From Aquimarina algicola (GTDB taxonomy: Bacteria; Bacteroidota; Bacteroidia; Flavobacteriales; Flavobacteriaceae): a stretch of DNA of 64,000 nucleotides. Below are positions 6,435-18,082 of this stretch, piece after piece. Positions within the stretch are counted from its first letter, which is position 1, and every line of letters starts with the position of its first letter. The position numbers and the translations under genes are program-made. The stretch is taken from contig NZ_VFWZ01000009.1 in NCBI RefSeq assembly GCF_006443095.1, forward strand, positions 378,990-442,989. The letters are read 5' to 3'. Under the pieces are notes generated by a model. That model did not search any database and was not told the DNA's origin. It saw only the letters and a list, made by a program, of their open reading frames with translations.

Positions 6435-8861
6435 TTATCTTAACTCGGCATCAAGTTTATTTTCAAAATTATGTTGTAACTTATTCATGATTTTATCGAT
6501 TTGCTTGTCTGTAAGTGTTTTATTTTCATCTAAAAGCGTAAAACTTACAGCATATGATTTTTTTCCTTCCGGAAGATTTTCACCTTGATAAACATCAAAC
6601 AAATTAATATTTTTTAATAGGTTCTTTTCAGTTTGCTTCGCTATTGTATAGACTTCTTCAAAAGTGATAGAGTCATTTAATAAAAGAGCAAAGTCTCTAC
6701 GTACTTCAGGGAATTTAGGGATATCTTTATACTTGATTTTGGTATATTTTGAATATTCTAAAATATTATCCCAATTAAAGTCTGCATACAAAACTTCTTG
6801 AGTTATAGAAAAATGTTTTAGTACAGATTTTTTAATAACTCCAAAATCAACTAGTTTGGTTTTTCCTATACTTAAAGAAATACCTTCAGAAAACATATCA
6901 TTTTTGATGGGTGAAGTTTTTAATCTTTCAATGCCTAATCGGTTCAGGACATTAGAAACAATACCCTTTATGTAAAAGAAATCACTTGTTTTTTGTTCAG
7001 TATTCCAGCTTTCACTTGTCTTATTTCCAGAAATGGTAATACTTAAGTGTTTGTTTTCTACCCTTTCTTCACCATAATGATGATACGTTTTTCCAAATTC
7101 AAATAGTTTAAGATCAGCTCTCCTTCTGTTAATATTATAAGAAATTGCTTCTAGAACAGAAAAAAGCATTGATTGTCTCATAACTGCCAAATCATTACTT
7201 AAAGGATTAAGCATTTGAACATTGTGCTCTGGTTTTAATTGCTCACTTAAGTTAATGTATTCTGGGCTTGTTAGAGAGTTTGCCATCATTTCATTAAATC
7301 CTTGACCAATTAATTGATTAGCGATTGTATTTTGGATTTTATGGTCAGAGAATTTGTCGATATTAGAAATAGATGCATTTAATTTTTGAGTAAATCCAAT
7401 GTTGTTATATCCATATACTCTTAATATTTCTTCAATAACGTCAGACTCTCTTTGTACATCATTTCGATAGGCAGGAATAGTCAATCCAATTGCGGTTTCG
7501 GTGACGCTATTGATTTTTATTTCTAAAGAAGTAAGTATTCTTTTTATAGTATCTTGAGGAATTTCCTCACCAATAAGTTTGGTCGCATTTTCAAAAGATA
7601 GAAATACTTGAAAATCTTCAATTTTTTTTGGGTATAAATCTATGATTTCACTAGAAATATTTCCTCCTGCCAACTCTTGTATGAGTAGTGCAGCTCTTTT
7701 TAAAGCATACTCCGTTATATTAGGATCAATACCTCTTTCAAATCTAAAAGAAGCATCAGTATTAAGTCCATGTCTTTTTGCAGTTTTACGAATACTTACA
7801 GGATTAAAATAAGCACTTTCTAAGAATATTGATGTTGTTCTTTCTGTAACACCTGAGTTAAGCCCTCCAAAAACACCAGCAATACAGAGTGGTTTATTAG
7901 CATCGCATATCATCAAATCGTCTTCATGCAGTTCTCTTTCAACTTCATCGAGAGTAGTGAATTTTGTGCCTGCTTCAACCGTTTTTACCTCTATCTTTTC
8001 ACCTTCAATCTCATGCGCATCAAAAGCATGTAGAGGTTGGCCTAATTCATGAAGTACATAATTAGTAACATCTACAACATTATTTTTTGGAGTGATACCG
8101 ATTGCTTGTAATCTATATTTTAGCCAATTAGGCGATTCTTTTACTTTGATATTAGAAATGGTTAAACCACAATATCTAGGGGCTAATTCAGAGTTTTTAA
8201 CTTCTATATCAATTTTGTTTAATCTGTTTTCTACTCTAAAACTGCTAACCGAAGGTGTGATTAATTCTAGGTTAATATCTTTTTGTAGTAGTCCTGCTTT
8301 CAAATCTCTGGCAGTACCCCAGTGACTCATAGCATCAGCCCTATTGGGAGTAAGTCCTATTTCAAAAATTGAATCATTCTCTACATCAAAGATTTCAGAA
8401 GCTTTAGTCCCCACGGCAATATCAGCATCAAGAACCATAATACCTTCATGACTTGCACCCAGACCTAATTCATCTTCGGCGCAAATCATCCCATGGCTCT
8501 CTTCACCTCTTATTTTCCCTTTTTTAATTGTCCATTCTTTACCTTCTTGATCGTATAGTTTTGTGCCAATTGTAGCAACAGGTACTTTTTGACCGGCAGC
8601 AACATTGGGAGCTCCACATACAATTTGTACAGGATCACCTTTACCAAGATCTACTTTGGTTATTTTTAATTTATCTGCATTTGGATGTTTTTCGCAGTTT
8701 AATACCTGACCTACAATTACTCCTTCTAGTCCACCTTTTATACTTTGAAAAGTTTCTATTCCTTCTACTTCAAGTCCTAGATCTGTAAGTAATTCTCCAG
8801 CTTTTTCTGCCTCCCAATCAAGATTAATAAATTGTTTTAACCAGTTATATGAAATTTTCAT
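6435..8861 (-). CDS. pheT: Phenylalanyl-tRNA synthetase beta subunit
   Basis: PheT pairs with PheS to charge tRNA-Phe. The 808-residue length is standard. Reading from the N-terminus: the EMAP/OB tRNA-binding domain (about 40-150, with KHPNADKLKI), the B3/4 editing domain (about 210-390), the B5 domain (about 410-475), the catalytic-core-like fold, and the C-terminal anticodon-binding FDX-ACB domain (about 715-808, with PKFPEVRRDFAL). pheS is not in the window, so the two subunits are not adjacent here, as is usual in Bacteroidota. Confidence 0.97.
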   Translation of the reverse strand: MKISYNWLKQFINLDWEAEKAGELLTDLGLEVEGIETFQSIKGGLEGVIVGQVLNCEKHPNADKLKITKVDLGKGDPVQIVCGAPNVAAGQKVPVATIGTKLYDQEGKEWTIKKGKIRGEESHGMICAEDELGLGASHEGIMVLDADIAVGTKASEIFDVENDSIFEIGLTPNRADAMSHWGTARDLKAGLLQKDINLELITPSVSSFRVENRLNKIDIEVKNSELAPRYCGLTISNIKVKESPNWLKYRLQAIGITPKNNVVDVTNYVLHELGQPLHAFDAHEIEGEKIEVKTVEAGTKFTTLDEVERELHEDDLMICDANKPLCIAGVFGGLNSGVTERTTSIFLESAYFNPVSIRKTAKRHGLNTDASFRFERGIDPNITEYALKRAALLIQELAGGNISSEIIDLYPKKIEDFQVFLSFENATKLIGEEIPQDTIKRILTSLEIKINSVTETAIGLTIPAYRNDVQRESDVIEEILRVYGYNNIGFTQKLNASISNIDKFSDHKIQNTIANQLIGQGFNEMMANSLTSPEYINLSEQLKPEHNVQMLNPLSNDLAVMRQSMLFSVLEAISYNINRRRADLKLFEFGKTYHHYGEERVENKHLSITISGNKTSESWNTEQKTSDFFYIKGIVSNVLNRLGIERLKTSPIKNDMFSEGISLSIGKTKLVDFGVIKKSVLKHFSITQEVLYADFNWDNILEYSKYTKIKYKDIPKFPEVRRDFALLLNDSITFEEVYTIAKQTEKNLLKNINLFDVYQGENLPEGKKSYAVSFTLLDENKTLTDKQIDKIMNKLQHNFENKLDAELR

Positions 8862-10942: not shown

Positions 10943-13036
10943 ATGAGTAAAGCCGTTTATGTAGCCACTATAGAGCCTAATAGTGGTAAATCCATTGTAG
11001 TTTTAGGAATGATGCGAATGTTACTTGGTAAAGTAGCAAGGGTAGGATATTTTAGACCGATTATAGATGATCCCGAAGCGGGAGAGGTCGATAATCATAT
11101 TAATACAGTAATCTCACACTTCGAACTCGATATTAACTTTAAAAAAGCATACGCATATACACGTAGTGAAGTACTTCAAAAACATAACCAGGGTAAATTT
11201 GGAGAAGTTATTGACGAGATTATAAGAAAATATAAAGCTCTTGAAGAGAAATTTGATTTTATACTGGTCGAAGGTACAGACTTTTCTGATGAAGGAAGTA
11301 TTATTGAATTTGATATCAATGTTGTTATTGCTAAAAACCTAGGTATTCCTGCTGTAATTGTAGCAAGCGGTGTTGATAAGAAGAACGAAGAAATTGTTGG
11401 GAATCTAAAGCTAGCTTTAGATACTTTTAACAACAGAGATGTAGAAGTTCTGGCATTGGTTGCAAACAAAGTGCAGCCCGGTTGTGAAAATCAACTGCAA
11501 ATTGAGTTTGATAAAGATTTTAAAAATGGAGTTGATAGAATTATCATTCCTAAGGTAAATTCTTTGAATAACCCAACGATCAAAGAGATTGTCAAAGAAT
11601 TGGATGGCAATATTTTGTTTGGGAAAGAATATCTTAACAATCAGGCAGGCAGTTTTGGAGTCGGAGCAATGCAATTGAGAAATTATCTCACACATCTCAA
11701 AGAAAATAGTTTGGTAATAACTCCAGGTGATCGAGCAGATATTATTTTGGGAGTATTACAAGCCAATATATCAGATAATTATCCTAAAATATCCGGAATC
11801 ATATTAACGGGGGGGATTATTCCTGAACCATCAATACTTAAGTTAATAGAAGGGGTTTCATTATCATTTCCAATAATTTCGGTTACAAGCGGAACATTCT
11901 CTGTAACAAATAAAATAGGAGCTATCAAATCAAGGATTTATGTTGATAATGTCCAAAAAATTAATACTTCAATTAGCACATTTGCAAAATATGCGAACGA
12001 GGATCATCTGGCAGATCGCCTAATTACATTTAAATCAGAAAGTTTAACTCCAAAAATGTTCCAGTATAATCTATTGAGAAGGGCGTTAAAACAAAAGAAA
12101 CATATTGTTCTTCCTGAAGGTTATGACGAGCGTATTTTGAGAGCAACGTCTCGTTTATTAGCATCTAGAGTAGTGGATATTACTCTAATAGGAGACGAGA
12201 AAAAAATAAAAAATAGATCAGCAAAACTTGATATTCCGATTGATTTTACCAAGATTAATATCGTAAATCCTGTAGAGTCTGAATATTATGAAGACTATGT
12301 ACAAACATTTTATGAGTTACGTAAACACAAAAACGTAAATTTGGATATGGCTAGGGATATGATGGCCGATGTATCTTATTTTGGTACTATGATGATCTAT
12401 AAAGGTCATGCCGATGGTATGGTGTCTGGTGCAGTGCATACGACTCAGCATACGATACGACCTGCACTTCAGTTTATAAAGACCAAGCCGAATGTTAAAG
12501 TAGTTTCCTCTGTGTTTTTCATGTGTTTAGAAGATCGTGTTTCTGTATTTGGTGATTGCGCAATTAATCCTAATCCCGATTCTGAACAACTGGCAGAAAT
12601 CGCTATATCTTCTTCAGAATCTGCTCAGGCATTTGGTATTGAACCAAAAGTAGCAATGTTATCTTATTCTTCGGGAACTTCAGGAAAAGGAGCAGATGTA
12701 GAAATTGTTAGGGCGGCAACAGAAATCGTAAAAGATAAACGTCCTGAACTCAAAATAGAAGGGCCGATACAATATGATGCAGCAGTAGATATGAAGGTTG
12801 GTCAAAGTAAATTACCTGATTCTGAAGTAGCGGGTCAAGCTAGTGTACTTATTTTCCCGGACTTGAATACCGGTAATAATACATACAAAGCCGTGCAGAG
12901 AGAAACAGGAGCACTTGCTATTGGCCCAATGCTGCAAGGGTTAAATAAACCTGTAAATGATCTTAGTAGAGGATGTACAGTAGATGATGTTTATAATACA
13001 GTGATTATTACAGCAATTCAGGCTCAAGGATTATAG
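10943..13036 (+). CDS. pta: Phosphate acetyltransferase (long form)
   Basis: Pta interconverts acetyl-CoA + phosphate and acetyl-phosphate + CoA. At 697 residues it is the long three-domain type: an N-terminal P-loop/BioD-like domain (VATIEPNSGKSIVVLG), a central DRTGG domain (around GDRADIILG and GIILTGG), and the C-terminal catalytic PTA_PTB domain (from about 375, with VLPEGYDERILRA, SSGTSGKGADVE and YDAAVD). ackA follows 36 bp later on the same strand, so the two form the acetate overflow/assimilation operon. Confidence 0.97.
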   Translation: MSKAVYVATIEPNSGKSIVVLGMMRMLLGKVARVGYFRPIIDDPEAGEVDNHINTVISHFELDINFKKAYAYTRSEVLQKHNQGKFGEVIDEIIRKYKALEEKFDFILVEGTDFSDEGSIIEFDINVVIAKNLGIPAVIVASGVDKKNEEIVGNLKLALDTFNNRDVEVLALVANKVQPGCENQLQIEFDKDFKNGVDRIIIPKVNSLNNPTIKEIVKELDGNILFGKEYLNNQAGSFGVGAMQLRNYLTHLKENSLVITPGDRADIILGVLQANISDNYPKISGIILTGGIIPEPSILKLIEGVSLSFPIISVTSGTFSVTNKIGAIKSRIYVDNVQKINTSISTFAKYANEDHLADRLITFKSESLTPKMFQYNLLRRALKQKKHIVLPEGYDERILRATSRLLASRVVDITLIGDEKKIKNRSAKLDIPIDFTKINIVNPVESEYYEDYVQTFYELRKHKNVNLDMARDMMADVSYFGTMMIYKGHADGMVSGAVHTTQHTIRPALQFIKTKPNVKVVSSVFFMCLEDRVSVFGDCAINPNPDSEQLAEIAISSSESAQAFGIEPKVAMLSYSSGTSGKGADVEIVRAATEIVKDKRPELKIEGPIQYDAAVDMKVGQSKLPDSEVAGQASVLIFPDLNTGNNTYKAVQRETGALAIGPMLQGLNKPVNDLSRGCTVDDVYNTVIITAIQAQGL

Positions 13037-13072
13037 ATATAAAACTCAAAAAAATACCTCTTTATAAATATT

Positions 13073-14257
13073 ATGCAGATACTTGTATTAAACTCAGGAA
13101 GTTCTTCTATAAAATTTCAATTATTTACCATGCCCGAAGCAAAAGTAATCTGTTCGGGGCTTGTGGAACGTATAGGTTTAGAAAATGCTAAAATTAATTA
13201 TCATTCAATTTCTACTACGATTGAAGAAGTAGCAACTATCTCTAATCATAAAGAAGGATTGCAGCTTATTGCAGACTATTTAATGGACAAAGAAAAGGGA
13301 GTTATTGATTCAGCTTCAGAAATACAGATAGTTGGTCATAGAGTTGTTCATGGAGGAAATACTTTTGCAGAGACTACTGTAATTAATGAAGCTGTTAAAA
13401 GTAAAATAAAAGAGCTCGCAGCACTTGCCCCTTTACATAATCCTGCAAATTTACAAGGAATAGAAGTAGCAGAACAAATATTTACAAAAGCAAAACAAAT
13501 CGCTGTATTTGATACCGCATTTCATCAAACGATCCCTGTAGAAGCTTATAAATATGCAATACCAAATCAATTTTTAGATGAAAATCATATTAGATTGTAT
13601 GGTTTTCATGGCACGAGCCATAAATATGTTTCAGAAAAAGCTAATGAGTTTTTGAATAAAAGCACCAGTAAAATAATTACAATACATTTAGGTAATGGAT
13701 GTAGTATGACTGCTGTAAAAGATGGAAAAAGTATTGATCACACATTAGGTTTTGCTCCTATGAATGGTTTAATAATGGGAACTCGATGTGGTGATATCGA
13801 TCCGGCAGTGATTTTTTATATGGTTAATGCCTTAGGGTATACTTTGGAAGAAGTAAATACACTCCTACAAAAAGAAAGCGGTATGCTTGGATTAACAGGA
13901 TTTAGTGATTTAAGAGATATAGAATCAGCAGCAGAACAAGGAAATGAACAGTGTAAATTAGCACTGAGAATGAATGCCTATCGTATCAAGAAGTTTATAG
14001 GGACTTATGCTGCAATAATGAATGGTTTGGATGCAATAGTGTTTACTGCCGGTATAGGTGAAAATTCTGATGTGATAAGAAAACTAGTTTGTGAAGAATT
14101 AGAATTTTTAGGAATTCAATTAGATAATGCAAAGAATGAGATAAGATCCAAAGAAATAAGAGAGATTAATGCAGAATTATCAAAAGTGAAAATTCTAATC
14201 GTACCTACAAACGAAGAACTTGAAATAGCAAAACAATCCTTTGATTTATTACAATAG
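13073..14257 (+). CDS. ackA: Acetate kinase
   Basis: AckA converts acetyl-phosphate + ADP to acetate + ATP, completing the Pta-AckA pathway. The 394 residues match the family. Visible signatures are the N-terminal LVLNSGSSSIKFQLF, HRVVHGG, FHGTSHKYV, the phosphate-binding HLGNGCSM, MGTRCGDIDP and the adenosine-binding TAGIGENS. It is the second gene of the operon, 36 bp behind pta. The region downstream is convergent with the peptide cluster. Confidence 0.98.
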   Translation: MQILVLNSGSSSIKFQLFTMPEAKVICSGLVERIGLENAKINYHSISTTIEEVATISNHKEGLQLIADYLMDKEKGVIDSASEIQIVGHRVVHGGNTFAETTVINEAVKSKIKELAALAPLHNPANLQGIEVAEQIFTKAKQIAVFDTAFHQTIPVEAYKYAIPNQFLDENHIRLYGFHGTSHKYVSEKANEFLNKSTSKIITIHLGNGCSMTAVKDGKSIDHTLGFAPMNGLIMGTRCGDIDPAVIFYMVNALGYTLEEVNTLLQKESGMLGLTGFSDLRDIESAAEQGNEQCKLALRMNAYRIKKFIGTYAAIMNGLDAIVFTAGIGENSDVIRKLVCEELEFLGIQLDNAKNEIRSKEIREINAELSKVKILIVPTNEELEIAKQSFDLLQ

Positions 14258-14273
14258 CTTCATATAAAAAACA

Positions 14274-14314
14274 ATCATCTTGAGTTGATAATAAATATAT
14301 AAACTCAAGATGAT
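14274..14314 (-). terminator. Terminator shared between ackA and the peptide cluster
   Basis: A perfect 13-bp stem, ATCATCTTGAGTT / AACTCAAGATGAT, with a 15-base AT-rich loop. On the minus strand it is followed by TGTTTTTTATATG, so it best serves the peptide transcript; on the plus strand no T run follows. Confidence 0.75.
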
Positions 14315-14359
14315 ATAAGAAGGGTAGTCTCTAAAGAAATACCCTAGTCATTGCTAATG

Positions 14360-14545
14360 TTATGCCCAAATACAACCATTAGCAACACAATATCCGAAAT
14401 CGCAAAATTCTCCTCCTTCTGGCAATCTGACACAACATCTACCTGGAGGTCCACAATAAGGTCTATTAAAATTAGAACCTTTAATTCCTTTCTGTTCTTC
14501 TTTTTGGAGTTTATGTACTCCTTTTAATTCTAAAATTTTCTTCAT
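14360..14545 (-). CDS. Cys-rich GA/GS-leader peptide D (last of four)
   Basis: A 61-residue precursor-like peptide. The 24-residue leader (MKKILELKG..., then KLQKEEQ, then IKGS) matches the three upstream paralogues. The KE-Q-x-x-IKG[AS] ending resembles the double-glycine-type leaders cut by C39 peptidases. The predicted 37-residue core has six cysteines in the order C-x5-C-C-x9-C-x4-C-x4-C and ends IWA. Its double Cys comes second instead of first, unlike the other three. The start is preceded by the ACACAATG context shared by the set. No modification or export gene lies nearby. A secreted antimicrobial or signalling peptide is the leading inference; function is unknown. Confidence 0.75.
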   Translation of the reverse strand: MKKILELKGVHKLQKEEQKGIKGSNFNRPYCGPPGRCCVRLPEGGEFCDFGYCVANGCIWA

Positions 14546-14717
14546 TGTGTAATATATTTAAATAATTAAGTAGTAATACTAAAAAAAATGAAAAACACTT
14601 TAATAGATCTTAAATGTAGGTAGACAGTTTTATTAAATACAATTTTATATTTTTATATAATAAGCCTTTTCATAAAAGTTTTATTAAAGCGTTATTTCCA
14701 GTCGGTTTTGTCAAAGG

Positions 14718-14906
14718 CTATGCCAATATACATTTACTCGAACCAAAACATCTTCCGGGGACACAGACAAATTCATCACCTGTTGAACTAATTAAACAAC
14801 CATTACCCGAAGGGCAACAGGATACGCTATTAGCAGCACCTTTTATGTTTTGCTGTTGTTCTTTGGTTAGTTTTTGAGTCCCTGACAATTCTAAGATTTT
14901 TTTCAT
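14718..14906 (-). CDS. Cys-rich GA/GS-leader peptide C
   Basis: 62 residues. The leader is MKKILELSG followed by TQKLTKEQQQNIKGA, nearly identical to that of peptide B. The 38-residue core has the pattern C-C-x5-C-x10-C-x4-C-x5-C and ends ILA, with a VPGRC segment matching the EPGxC of its paralogues. The 187 bp to the preceding peptide gene contain a nested inverted repeat. Upstream of the ATG is AAATATAAACACA, shared with the other copies. Confidence 0.75.
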   Translation of the reverse strand: MKKILELSGTQKLTKEQQQNIKGAANSVSCCPSGNGCLISSTGDEFVCVPGRCFGSSKCILA

Positions 14907-14971
14907 TGTGTTTATATTTATTTGTTAAAAAATACAAATGTGGCATCGTAGAGTAAAAGAGATTGATTGAT

Positions 14972-15074
14972 AATGCTCTAAAACTTATATATGATATTAG
15001 ACTAGCCGATTTAGTTTTACTAGTGCATGCCTCATATAAAGTGAGGTCTACCATTATGCAAGTTTTAAAGCATT
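14972..15074. repeat. Nested inverted-repeat element between peptide genes
   Basis: Outer arms AATGCTCTAAAACTT (14972-14986) and AAGTTTTAAAGCATT (15060-15074) pair over 15 bp with one mismatch. Inside lie two smaller hairpins, ACTAG/CTAGT (15001-15024) and CCTCA/TGAGG (15030-15046). The layout could be a multi-branch RNA in the peptide leader/intergenic transcript or a small MITE-like insertion; sequence alone cannot decide. Confidence 0.6.
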
Positions 15075-15093
15075 TTTTATGGTTTTGTAAAGA

Positions 15094-15285
15094 CTATGCT
15101 AATATACATCTATTAGGTCTGAATCGATCACAATATCCAGGCTCGCAAAAACTTTCGCCTCCAAAACTTAATAAACAACCTCTACCGGTTGGACAACAAG
15201 TAACGGTACCAAATGCACCTTTAATATTTTGTTGTTGTTCTCTCGTTAATTTTTGGATTCCTGATAATTCTAAGATTTTTTTCAT
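15094..15285 (-). CDS. Cys-rich GA/GS-leader peptide B
   Basis: 63 residues. The leader MKKILELSG...KLTREQQQNIKGA differs from that of peptide C at only two positions. The 39-residue core follows C-C-x5-C-x9-C-x4-C-x7-C and ends ILA; it contains FCEPGYC. It starts only 51 bp after the stop of peptide A, so the two are probably co-transcribed. An antisense frame of 118 codons overlaps this gene but has no support. Confidence 0.75.
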   Translation of the reverse strand: MKKILELSGIQKLTREQQQNIKGAFGTVTCCPTGRGCLLSFGGESFCEPGYCDRFRPNRCILA

Positions 15286-15336
15286 TGTATATATATTTAA
15301 AGTTATTGGTTACAAATAAAATAGAAGAAAAAGGTA

Positions 15337-15513
15337 TTAATAAAAAATACAGCCAAAGTTCGTGCAACGACCCGGTTCACAAAATTCTCCCCCCGGGAAA
15401 CTTACACGGCATTTGTTGCTACTACAACAGCCACTAAATATGGCTCCTCTGATTTTACTTTGTTCTTCTTTGTTGAGTTTTTGAATACCTGCGAGATTTA
15501 AGATGTTTTTCAT
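15337..15513 (-). CDS. Cys-rich GA/GS-leader peptide A (first of four)
   Basis: I place the start at the ATG at 15513, giving 58 residues; the frame is open 35 codons further upstream, but only the internal start aligns with the other three peptides and carries the same ACACAATG context. The leader is MKNILNLAG...KLNKEEQSKIRGA (24 residues). The 34-residue core is C-C-x4-C-x9-C-x4-C-x4-C ending IFY, with FCEPGRC. It is the promoter-proximal member, divergent from the nuclease gene. Confidence 0.75.
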   Translation of the reverse strand: MKNILNLAGIQKLNKEEQSKIRGAIFSGCCSSNKCRVSFPGGEFCEPGRCTNFGCIFY

Positions 15514-15802
15514 TGTGTAGTTATATTTAAATTGAATCTTTAAATTTAATTTAAAATATTGTAAAACAGTTACTTGTAAACCTTTAAAGAAATGCGGTAT
15601 AGTTCGCTTTTGTGACAATAATTATTGTATTAAGGGATAATTGCCATTTTTTTAAGAATAAAAAAGAAAAGTTTGGATACGTTTTTGATAAAGATATAAT
15701 GTTCTATTTAACAATTTAATAATGTTTTGTACAAGTACGTAAGTTAAAATAATGATAGTTTCGAAATTATTTATACCTTTTCAGTAAACTAACTTAAACA
15801 CA

Positions 15803-18082
15803 ATGAAAAAATTACTAGGCTTACTATTGATCATACCGACTCTTATATATAGTCAGATACCTTCTTATTATAACGATATTAATCTTAATGTATCAGGAAC
15901 GCAGTTAAAAAATGTATTAAGTGAAAAAATAACGAATACACATACAAACTTTTTATCATACACTCCTGGTGTTTGGGATGCATTAAAACAAACAGATATA
16001 GATCTTACAAATGCTTCAAAAGTATTATTAGTTTATGGATATAATGATTTAGATGGTGATAGCACTAATGATAGAACGAGAGGGATTAATGATAATGGAG
16101 GTGGATCAAATAGCTGGAATCGAGAACATGTATATCCAAAATCATTAGGTAATCCTAATTTGGGAACTAGTGGGCCTGGTGCGGATGCACATCATTTAAG
16201 ACCTGCAGATACACAGCGTAACTCATCTCGAGGCAATAGAAAATTTGGTGATGGTAGCGGAAACTCCGGAGCTACCTCTCAGGGGCATTGGTATCCCGGT
16301 GACGAGTGGAAAGGTGATGTTGCTCGTATGATGATGTATATGTATCTACGTTATGGAAACCGTTGTCTACCTAAAAATGTAGGAGTTGGCGCTTCGGTTT
16401 CAGGCGATAATAATATGATAGACTTATTTCTGCAATGGAATGTAGAAGACCCCGTTTCTCAATTTGAATTACAACGAAACCCAATTTTAGAAAATTTACA
16501 GGGTAATAGAAATCCTTTTATTGATAATCCCGCATTTGCTACGAAAATATGGGGAGGACCACAAGCAGAAGATAGATTTGGCAATTCTAATGGTAGTGAT
16601 ACTCAAGCACCAAGTACTCCTACTGCATTAGTAGCGTCTAATATTAATACAAATAGCATATCGCTATCCTGGAATGCCTCTACCGATAATGTAGGTGTTA
16701 CAGGATATGACATCTATCGTAACGGAATTCTTGTTAGCTCTTCTAATACTGCAAGTTATACAGTTACAGCTCTTGTAGCTAATACATCATATTCTTTTTT
16801 TGTAAGAGCAAAAGATGCAGCAGGTAATATATCTAATGCAAGTGCTACAATTGATGTAACAACTCTTAGTGGTCCACCAACAGGAGGATCAGGAGAACTA
16901 TTCTTTTCAGAATACATTGAAGGATCTTCAAATAATAAAGCCATTGAAATAGCGAATTTTACAGGAACATCAGTGAATCTATCAGAGTATAGTATTAAAA
17001 AACAGATTAATGGAGCTGGTTCATGGTCTTCTACTCTAAATCTTTCTGGAACGTTAGCTAGTGGAGATGTATTTGTAATAGCAAACGCTTCTGCAACTAG
17101 TGGGATTAAAAATGAAGCAGACCTTGTAACGTCATCTTCGGCAGTTACTTTTAATGGTAATGATCCTGTTGGATTGTTCAAAAATGATGTACTGATTGAT
17201 ATTATAGGAATATTTGATGGAGGATCTACTAATTTTGCACAGAATATGACATTGAGAAGAAAAGCAGATATATCAACACCTTCTACATCTTTTACAATAT
17301 CAAACTGGGATTCATACTCTCAAGATACTTTTAGTGGCTTGGGAAAGCACACAAAAAGTAGTCAAAATAATCAAACGTCTTATTGTACTTCAAAAGGAAA
17401 TACAACTACATACGAATACATAGATCATGTAGAGATTGGTGGAATATCTAATACTACTGTAGCAAATAATGGATATGGTGATTTTACTTCACAAACAGCT
17501 CAATTATCATATGGAAGAAATACGATAGTATTAAGTGCAGGTTTTACAGGAACTCCTTATGCAGAATATTGGAGAGTTTGGATCGATTTTAATAAAAATG
17601 GTGTTTTTGAAACTTCAGAATTAATGGTAGATGAATCTTCTTCCAGTGATTCACAACTATCATATGACTTTAATATACCATCTTCAGTAAGTAGTGGCGA
17701 GACCAGAATGCGTATTGCGATGAAATGGGATAGTGCCTCAACACCATGCGAGACTTTTGGTTATGGTGAGGTTGAAGATTATACAATAATCCTCAACACA
17801 TCTACTTCTCAAAGCTTGAAAACAAATTTAGCAACTTTACAAAAGCAAGAAGAAGAATTTTTAATAACAATTCACCCTAATCCTGCATCAGAATACATTC
17901 AAATTAATGGAGAGAATACACTCAATTCACAATTTAAAATTACAAATATGGTTGGAGTAACTGTAAAGTCAGGAAAAGTAACCAATGATAAAATCTCTTT
18001 GGATAATTTAAGATCAGGAGTTTATTTTATTAATGTTTCTAATGATGAATATCATACTTCAAAAACAATTATAATTGAATAA
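15803..18082 (+). CDS. Secreted multidomain endonuclease I with T9SS sorting domain
   Basis: The 759 residues open with a signal peptide (KLLGLLLIIPTLIYSQ). Then come an endonuclease I (EndA/NucM) domain at about 20-270 with the active-site stretches WNREHVYPKS and ADAHHLRPAD; a fibronectin type III domain (about 270-355, SLSWNASTDNVGVTGYDIYR); a lamin-tail-like domain (about 365-470, LFFSEYIEGSSNNKAIEI); a GEVED domain (about 525-670, ending FGYGEVEDYTI); and a type IX secretion C-terminal sorting domain (about 688-759, IHPNPASEYIQI...GVYFINV). The protein is thus exported across both membranes and degrades extracellular DNA, probably for phosphate or nucleotide supply. It is divergent from the peptide cluster, with 289 bp between the starts. 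Confidence 0.93.
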   Translation: MKKLLGLLLIIPTLIYSQIPSYYNDINLNVSGTQLKNVLSEKITNTHTNFLSYTPGVWDALKQTDIDLTNASKVLLVYGYNDLDGDSTNDRTRGINDNGGGSNSWNREHVYPKSLGNPNLGTSGPGADAHHLRPADTQRNSSRGNRKFGDGSGNSGATSQGHWYPGDEWKGDVARMMMYMYLRYGNRCLPKNVGVGASVSGDNNMIDLFLQWNVEDPVSQFELQRNPILENLQGNRNPFIDNPAFATKIWGGPQAEDRFGNSNGSDTQAPSTPTALVASNINTNSISLSWNASTDNVGVTGYDIYRNGILVSSSNTASYTVTALVANTSYSFFVRAKDAAGNISNASATIDVTTLSGPPTGGSGELFFSEYIEGSSNNKAIEIANFTGTSVNLSEYSIKKQINGAGSWSSTLNLSGTLASGDVFVIANASATSGIKNEADLVTSSSAVTFNGNDPVGLFKNDVLIDIIGIFDGGSTNFAQNMTLRRKADISTPSTSFTISNWDSYSQDTFSGLGKHTKSSQNNQTSYCTSKGNTTTYEYIDHVEIGGISNTTVANNGYGDFTSQTAQLSYGRNTIVLSAGFTGTPYAEYWRVWIDFNKNGVFETSELMVDESSSSDSQLSYDFNIPSSVSSGETRMRIAMKWDSASTPCETFGYGEVEDYTIILNTSTSQSLKTNLATLQKQEEEFLITIHPNPASEYIQINGENTLNSQFKITNMVGVTVKSGKVTNDKISLDNLRSGVYFINVSNDEYHTSKTIIIE

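Follow-up and report, generated by a model that had tools for sequence, protein, structure and literature searches.

We found that a cluster of four small cysteine-rich peptide genes in Aquimarina algicola is a real and conserved locus, and that it offers an entry to an unusual dispersed system. On balance, we consider it probable that each of the four genes specifies the precursor of a disulfide-rich mini-protein for export, matured in trans by a C39-like/VKOR/thioredoxin fusion protein and a PCAT exporter. An earlier note, made from the letters of the window (the whole 64,000-nt stretch of DNA that was analyzed), had described the genes as an orphan cluster of secreted, possibly modified antimicrobial or signalling peptides that would have to mature in trans. 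Its leader class, export and trans maturation held up, its "orphan" label did not, and the evidence pointed to disulfides rather than thioethers.

The four-gene locus and its leader

The four tandem minus-strand genes of 58–63 codons reported in the earlier note were recovered as ORFs of 61, 62, 63 and 58 codons, and all of them encode the 24-residue leader it had claimed (ending in KGS, KGA, KGA and RGA, respectively), followed by six-cysteine cores of 37, 38, 39 and 34 residues, within its range of 34–39. Gene 1 (14360..14545, minus strand, 61 aa; leader 14474–14545) has the core pattern C-x5-CC-x9-C-x4-C-x4-C, gene 2 (14718..14906, minus strand, 62 aa; leader 14835–14906) has CC-x5-C-x10-C-x4-C-x5-C, gene 3 (15094..15285, minus strand, 63 aa; leader 15214–15285) has CC-x5-C-x9-C-x4-C-x7-C, and gene 4 (15337..15513, minus strand, 58 aa; leader 15442–15513) has CC-x4-C-x9-C-x4-C-x4-C. 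A longer 93-aa ORF for gene 4, starting at TTG, was dropped; the conserved leader begins at the ATG at 15513. The genes are separated by 172, 187 and 51 nt, and the cluster lies 102 nt from a gene we take to be ackA, encoding acetate kinase (13073..14257, plus strand), and 289 nt from a gene presumably encoding an endonuclease I-like secreted protein (15803..18082, plus strand). Synteny by tblastn identified both neighbors as locus markers that stand outside the system.

Pairwise, the four leaders are identical at 14–22 of 24 positions, while the best minimum identity among 5000 composition-preserving shuffles was 5/24, against 14/24 for the real leaders. The existence of 106 distinct homologous peptides, together with omega values of 0.33 for the leader and 0.68 for the core (147 non-independent pairs with pS of 0.03–0.45), leads us to conclude that the four ORFs are genuine genes rather than chance. 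Omega and the column counts below were taken from 100 of the 106 peptides, namely those with six cysteines and a score over 43; exactly six cysteines are present in 101 of the 106. The window-type peptides are thus under purifying selection, with the leader tightly kept and the core kept mainly at its cysteines.

Window-type peptides were found at 21 loci in a scan of named genomes, 19 of them with Aquimarina in the record title, and the same two neighbors flank the peptides at 16 of the 21, with the endonuclease side alone retained at two more and the remaining three (L058, L063 and L065) placed elsewhere. Between one and six copies occur per locus across Aquimarina, and the four-peptide profile matched 41 of 52 genomes of the genus at E ≤ 0.001. 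At least two listed family members (G048 and G023) carry stop codons. Scans of the four peptides against NCBIfam and Pfam gave no match above cut-off, and an Rfam search of positions 13000–17000 gave none at E ≤ 1. For gene 3, the best PDB match to an AlphaFold model (pLDDT 74) had an E-value of 2.6, far from the threshold of 0.001, and a sequence search for its fold returned a single chance-level match (E 0.3).

The earlier note had assigned the leader to the double-glycine (PCAT/C39) class, and this assignment was confirmed by the recognition positions kept in the 100 window-type homologues: glycine at position 23 in all 100, alanine or serine at 24 in 92, isoleucine at 21 (–4) in 92 and valine there in 7, and leucine at 13 (–12) in 98, along with glutamine at –7 in 98. 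PMC6363468 describes a C39 recognition layout that is hydrophobic at –4 and –12 with glycine at –2, and a groove in LahT that is filled by leader residues –4, –7 and –12. Further upstream lies a second conserved block, ILxLxG, which could serve a second leader reader, a role we would assign to the C39-like domain of the fusion protein described below. Genes 2 and 3 scored 12.7 and 15.4 bits against NF047798 (leader_Chryseo bacteriocin-like; cut-off 23.5), which genes 1 and 4 did not match, and one sister peptide from another genus passed the TIGR01847 bacteriocin signature (18.8 bits, cut-off 15.7). The high cysteine content, at 13.8% of core residues, would suit peptides that stay inside the cell, for instance as metal-binding cysteine-rich proteins for which the leader is a relic. 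We regard this explanation as extremely unlikely, given that the leader fits the layout from PMC6363468 cited above and that the peptides co-occur with a PCAT.

A dispersed peptide family and a candidate upstream RNA element

The earlier note had suggested searching the leader against the rest of this genome and other Flavobacteriaceae, and this search showed that the cluster is anything but an orphan. The four-peptide profile marked 27 places in the A. algicola genome at E ≤ 10, and a leader-only profile (A2) recovered 27 dispersed peptides at E < 5e-6, all of them cysteine-bearing, with the limit that A2 was built from these same 27 peptides. Three further leader genes, two of which are also weak leader matches, were found via the RNA element described below. 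The genome therefore holds at least 30 dispersed precursors that share the leader and vary in the core, the window four included. Across the genus, the number of leader matches per genome at E ≤ 0.01 ranged from 0 to 53.

Many of the sister genes are preceded by an element of about 34 nt that ends about 25–30 nt before the start codon, in which stem A (GACAC/GTGTC) and stem B (CCTTGA/TCAAGG in one copy) interlock as an H-type pseudoknot. The dyad had been considered as a DNA operator and was re-read as RNA because the second stem covaries. In 25 sequences, two of which were added by hand for stem B, two-sided changes occurred in all six pairs of this stem (39 cells, against 12.0 when shuffled; 0/500), pairs with two-sided changes numbered 7 against 4.5 when shuffled (14/500), and the covariation of stem B was 0.444, compared with at most 0.138 when the stem was slid. 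The exact dyad pattern matched five places in the genome (with one control match), each before a GG-leader gene: C1:49540, C3:231185, C21:447535, C21:610596 and C26:258335 (loci L204–L208). Many further elements lie in loci L096–L173. Of 52 elements inspected (52 of 56 matches, near-duplicates having been dropped), 47 are followed directly on the 3′ side by an ORF whose leader fits a loose GG-type pattern. We regard the element as a candidate cis-regulatory RNA of GG-leader peptide genes in several genera of Flavobacteriaceae.

No position of the window matched the pseudoknot model at E ≤ 5, and the element was not found at the four window genes. A model of stem A alone gave eight matches in sources from this genome at E < 0.003, seven of them already in the set used to train it and L173 being new, and none of them in the window. 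Rfam, applied to 11 loci at E ≤ 5, returned six matches, every one short of its gathering score and located away from the elements, a result to be read knowing that pseudoknot-free models may miss so short an element. At L173:6290-7372 (contig C23), a VKOR-thioredoxin frame lacking both the C39-like part and a clear start is followed by a pseudoknot element and then by a GG-leader peptide (7480–7683) that the leader profile did not list. A short palindrome (TTCTCTCGCGAGGAAT or TTCTTGCAAGGA, for instance), possibly a further hairpin, also lies just 5′ of many pseudoknots, among them those at L166, L132, L138 and L173.

Linkage to a probable fusion oxidase and a candidate exporter

The earlier note had stated that no exporter lies within the window, and for C39 this was correct, as no C39 domain match was found there; the cluster has no maturation gene close by. 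A check for C39 proteins revealed four places in the genome, three of them PCATs and the fourth a 532-aa C39-like/VKOR/thioredoxin fusion (C21:445195-446790) flanked by three GG-leader peptides. Maturation in trans is supported, with this fusion and a PCAT that has an HlyD partner (C27:130436-132637) as the candidate genes. We saw no GG peptides beside the C27 PCAT, and we preferred it as the candidate exporter because each of the other two PCATs (L025 and L026) has GG peptides of its own, absent from the leader-profile list, although either of these could be the exporter. The peptides at those two loci are cysteine-free, bacteriocin-like and GG-leadered (L025:8069-8197 on C12 and L026:11836-12126 on C26).

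The catalytic C39 cysteine, histidine and aspartate are present in all three PCATs, and were not seen in the aligned fusion proteins, as judged among the rows listed in an alignment of 54 proteins, two of which have most of the N-domain missing from the ORF. The fusion's VKOR cysteines (C193, C201, C268 and C271) and thioredoxin cysteines (C381/C384) are invariant in 40 of 40 sequences. Pfam VKOR matched the fusion at 55.8 bits (cut-off 27.5), and Pfam C39 scored 18.4 bits on its N-domain, under the cut-off of 22. A structural model of the fusion (pLDDT 84.7, pTM 0.53) placed its N-domain near PCAT1 (8vp9; Z 13.3, rmsd 3.1, 126 residues) and LahT (6mpz; Z 13.2, rmsd 3.1, 120 residues), its middle part near Synechococcus VKOR (4nv2; Z 13.2 over 129 residues) and its thioredoxin part near ScsC/DsbA-like proteins (Z 17.6 over 161 residues). 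An ORF at one locus in another family of the phylum (L200, genome G538) shares the HPxYPS motif of the fusion and reads KSWC at the VKOR CxxC, by which the fusion enzyme seems to reach beyond Flavobacteriaceae.

Within the genus, 22 of 30 fusion loci (the best 30 of 44 genomes matched) have a cysteine-bearing GG peptide within 1.5 kb, as found by regular expression and then by eye, with ABC-permease matches excluded. In nine Aquimarina stretches, counterparts of the C27 PCAT and HlyD directly follow the divergent fusion; these stretches were picked for having fusion and PCAT together and show the arrangement only. Eleven stretches from other genera had been chosen for having a leader next to the fusion, with the PCAT not a criterion, and in eight of them an orthologue of the C27 PCAT at 69–76% identity follows the peptides, with HlyD seen in seven (the stretch of L172 stops early); the order fusion, peptides, PCAT holds as an operon in 8 of the 11. 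Of the 59 fusion rows listed outside the genus, at least 20, from at least 18 of 45 genomes, have a listed leader within 2 kb and mostly within 250 bp, a lower bound that uses all 59 rows where a first comparison took 43. The window-type peptides themselves are also linked to these genes: one such core lies 112 bp downstream of a fusion (G016, L209; E 4.7e-9 to the core profile), and two lie 1.1–1.3 kb downstream of a PCAT of 46% identity (G008, L210).

Co-occurrence across genomes agreed with this linkage. Among the 52 genomes of the genus, all 43 with leaders carry the fusion, as does 1 of the 9 that lack them (Fisher 1.2e-8, relatedness ignored), and a PCAT orthologue of at least 83% identity, a cut set after seeing the gap to 74%, was present in 41 of the 43 leader-positive genomes and 0 of the 9 leader-negative ones (1.5e-8, relatedness ignored). 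The two leader-positive genomes without such a PCAT are 78% and 55% complete, and in the 46 genomes that are at least 90% complete the counts became 40/40 and 1/6 for the fusion and 40/40 and 0/6 for the PCAT. Three leader-negative genomes (G003, G007 and G036) keep PCATs of 45–74% identity, and G003 has a fusion at 29% without leaders. This co-absence at genus level may reflect few losses. Across 299 genomes of the family, from 203 genera, both leader and fusion were found in at least 35, the leader only in 5 (two at E 0.007–0.008), the fusion only in 13 and neither in 246 (1.8e-29, relatedness ignored), and without A. algicola's genus the figures among the matches listed were 32, 5, 13 and 246 (3e-27, relatedness ignored); these family counts are lower bounds, with at most 28 and at most 4 candidates per genome scored in the two scans. 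Linkage gives good support for naming the fusion as the oxidase at work.

The same linkage bears on the chemistry of the cores, for which the earlier note had left the choice between disulfides and thioethers. An even number of cysteines is present in 102 of 113 non-redundant cores, in 33 of 33 of the window-type family and in 70 of 81 without that family, as well as in 26 of the 27 leader peptides of this genome, in a tally made without the cysteine-free GG peptides of L096–L098, which the leader profile missed. These cysteine-free peptides lie near the fusion, up to four in tandem (L096:187-987, L097:180-991 and L098:401-559), and they misfit a pure disulfide story. No serine or threonine column of the core is invariant in the 100 homologues, the best being serine in 57. 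Even parity and linkage to a VKOR/thioredoxin oxidase thus favor disulfides over thioethers. The cores might instead be thioether or other RiPP products (lanthionine, sactionine or graspetide) whose maturing enzyme is encoded at a distant site, and the gene 2 leader does show weak similarity to grasp-with-spasm precursors (TIGR04194; 17.8 bits, with 13.8 for gene 3 and with genes 1 and 4 unmatched). As these scores fall under the curated cut-off of 33, and as cysteine parity, the lack of an invariant core serine or threonine and the linked disulfide oxidase all weigh against it, we find such a RiPP product very unlikely.

A proposed pathway and its relation to known systems

We consider it likely that the peptides form disulfides and leave the cell through the PCAT, and export, which the earlier note had claimed, is supported as the best reading by the double-glycine leader and the PCAT linkage in relatives. 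For the steps themselves we infer leader recognition, step order, topology, cleavage, export and any outer-membrane pore as follows. The C39-like domain of the C21 fusion, which is without catalytic residues, would hold the common leader; its VKOR and DsbA/ScsC-like thioredoxin parts would then oxidize the core cysteines to disulfides, probably at the cytoplasmic face of the membrane; the C39 domain of the C27 PCAT would cut the leader after GA or GS; and the PCAT with its HlyD partner would export the core, which might then serve as a toxin, an inhibitor or a signal.

The side of the membrane on which oxidation takes place depends on the topology of the fusion. Of its six hydrophobic helices, four belong to the VKOR part, one precedes it and one follows it, and its N- and C-terminal domains are predicted by hydropathy to lie on the same side of the membrane. 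The positive-inside rule is the basis for assigning that side. In 40 fusions, mean lysine plus arginine was 0.15 in the TM2-3 loop, 2.02 in the 12 residues before the CxxC and 0.40 in the TM4-5 loop, whereas in 15 ordinary VKORs of the phylum, several of them near-identical, the same regions gave 3.6, 0.2 and 3.33; this pattern is inverted, and the side index is positive for 39 of the 40 fusions and for none of the 15 controls. The controls were 15 of 30 phylum-scan loci, 19 of which had a VKOR-submodel match, leaving out L200 (a fusion by motif), L182 (a fusion) and L188 and L193 (labelled by position). The standalone VKOR-Trx of this genome was rejected as a control, being truncated, and controls were drawn from the phylum scan instead. 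By this charge pattern, the active site, thioredoxin and C39-like domain of the fusion would face the cytoplasm, which is the weakest link of the proposal, and the leader would then be readable before the PCAT cuts it.

Bacterial VKOR-Trx proteins are known that act outside the cytoplasm, and the fusion could likewise be an ordinary oxidase facing the periplasm, with cores cut, exported and oxidized on the way out and the C39-like domain serving another role. PCAT C39 domains do cut before export, and the linkage evidence is the same for this arrangement; even so, we judge it unlikely, as it sits poorly with the inverted lysine/arginine pattern and with the six helices, which put the C39-like domain with the thioredoxin in a periplasm where the cut-off leader would be unavailable. 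Leader-guided oxidation in the cytoplasm is suggested by the C39-like domain without catalytic residues and by the inverted charge pattern, and we offer the cytoplasmic site as a testable proposal. The full scheme, in which a fusion of C39 reader, inverted VKOR and DsbA guides disulfides by the leader in the cytoplasm, one conserved PCAT cuts and exports dozens of scattered precursors and part of the set is under the 5′ pseudoknot, would be a new way of maturing ribosomal peptides and is one that we put forward tentatively. If true, flavobacteria hold large sets of disulfide-rich mini-proteins on one processing route (up to 53 leader matches per genome), and this route might be adapted for making disulfide-rich peptides in the bacterial cytoplasm. 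Small genes that now lack annotation would also become part of a secretion system open to testing, and the fusion would gain a candidate substrate.

Like PCAT/AMS substrates (LahT, PCAT1 and class II bacteriocins), the precursors have a short leader ending in G-G/A/S that is hydrophobic at –4 and –12, and their candidate transporter retains the C39 cysteine, histidine and aspartate; the precursors differ in being scattered over the genome and, compared with LahT, in having glutamine rather than leucine at –7 and the extra ILxLxG block. Prochlorosins likewise pair dispersed precursors of conserved leader and variable core with one promiscuous enzyme acting in trans, although that enzyme is a lanthionine synthetase and the one here would be a disulfide oxidase. 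Dedicated thiol oxidoreductases also help bacteriocins form disulfides, with BdbB acting for sublancin and PedC for pediocin, and the fusion resembles them in standing beside cysteine-bearing exported peptides; it differs in that VKOR and DsbA-like parts are fused to a degenerate C39 domain, a possible leader binder. As a precedent for an inverted VKOR, the topology of the Aeropyrum pernix enzyme reportedly promotes disulfide formation in two subcellular compartments (work attributed to Hibender et al., 2017); that protein is archaeal and is not known to have a C39-like domain or peptide partner. Our search of open-licence PMC literature returned no paper linking a C39-like/VKOR/thioredoxin fusion to such peptides, and the main text of PMC4555120 makes no mention of C39, peptidase, Bacteroid, fusion or Flavobacteri. 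According to PMC6363468, the C39-like domain of HlyB has the C39 fold without catalytic residues and recruits substrate. The fusion shares such a fold without catalytic residues, but here it is attached to an oxidase, whereas in HlyB it is attached to a transporter.
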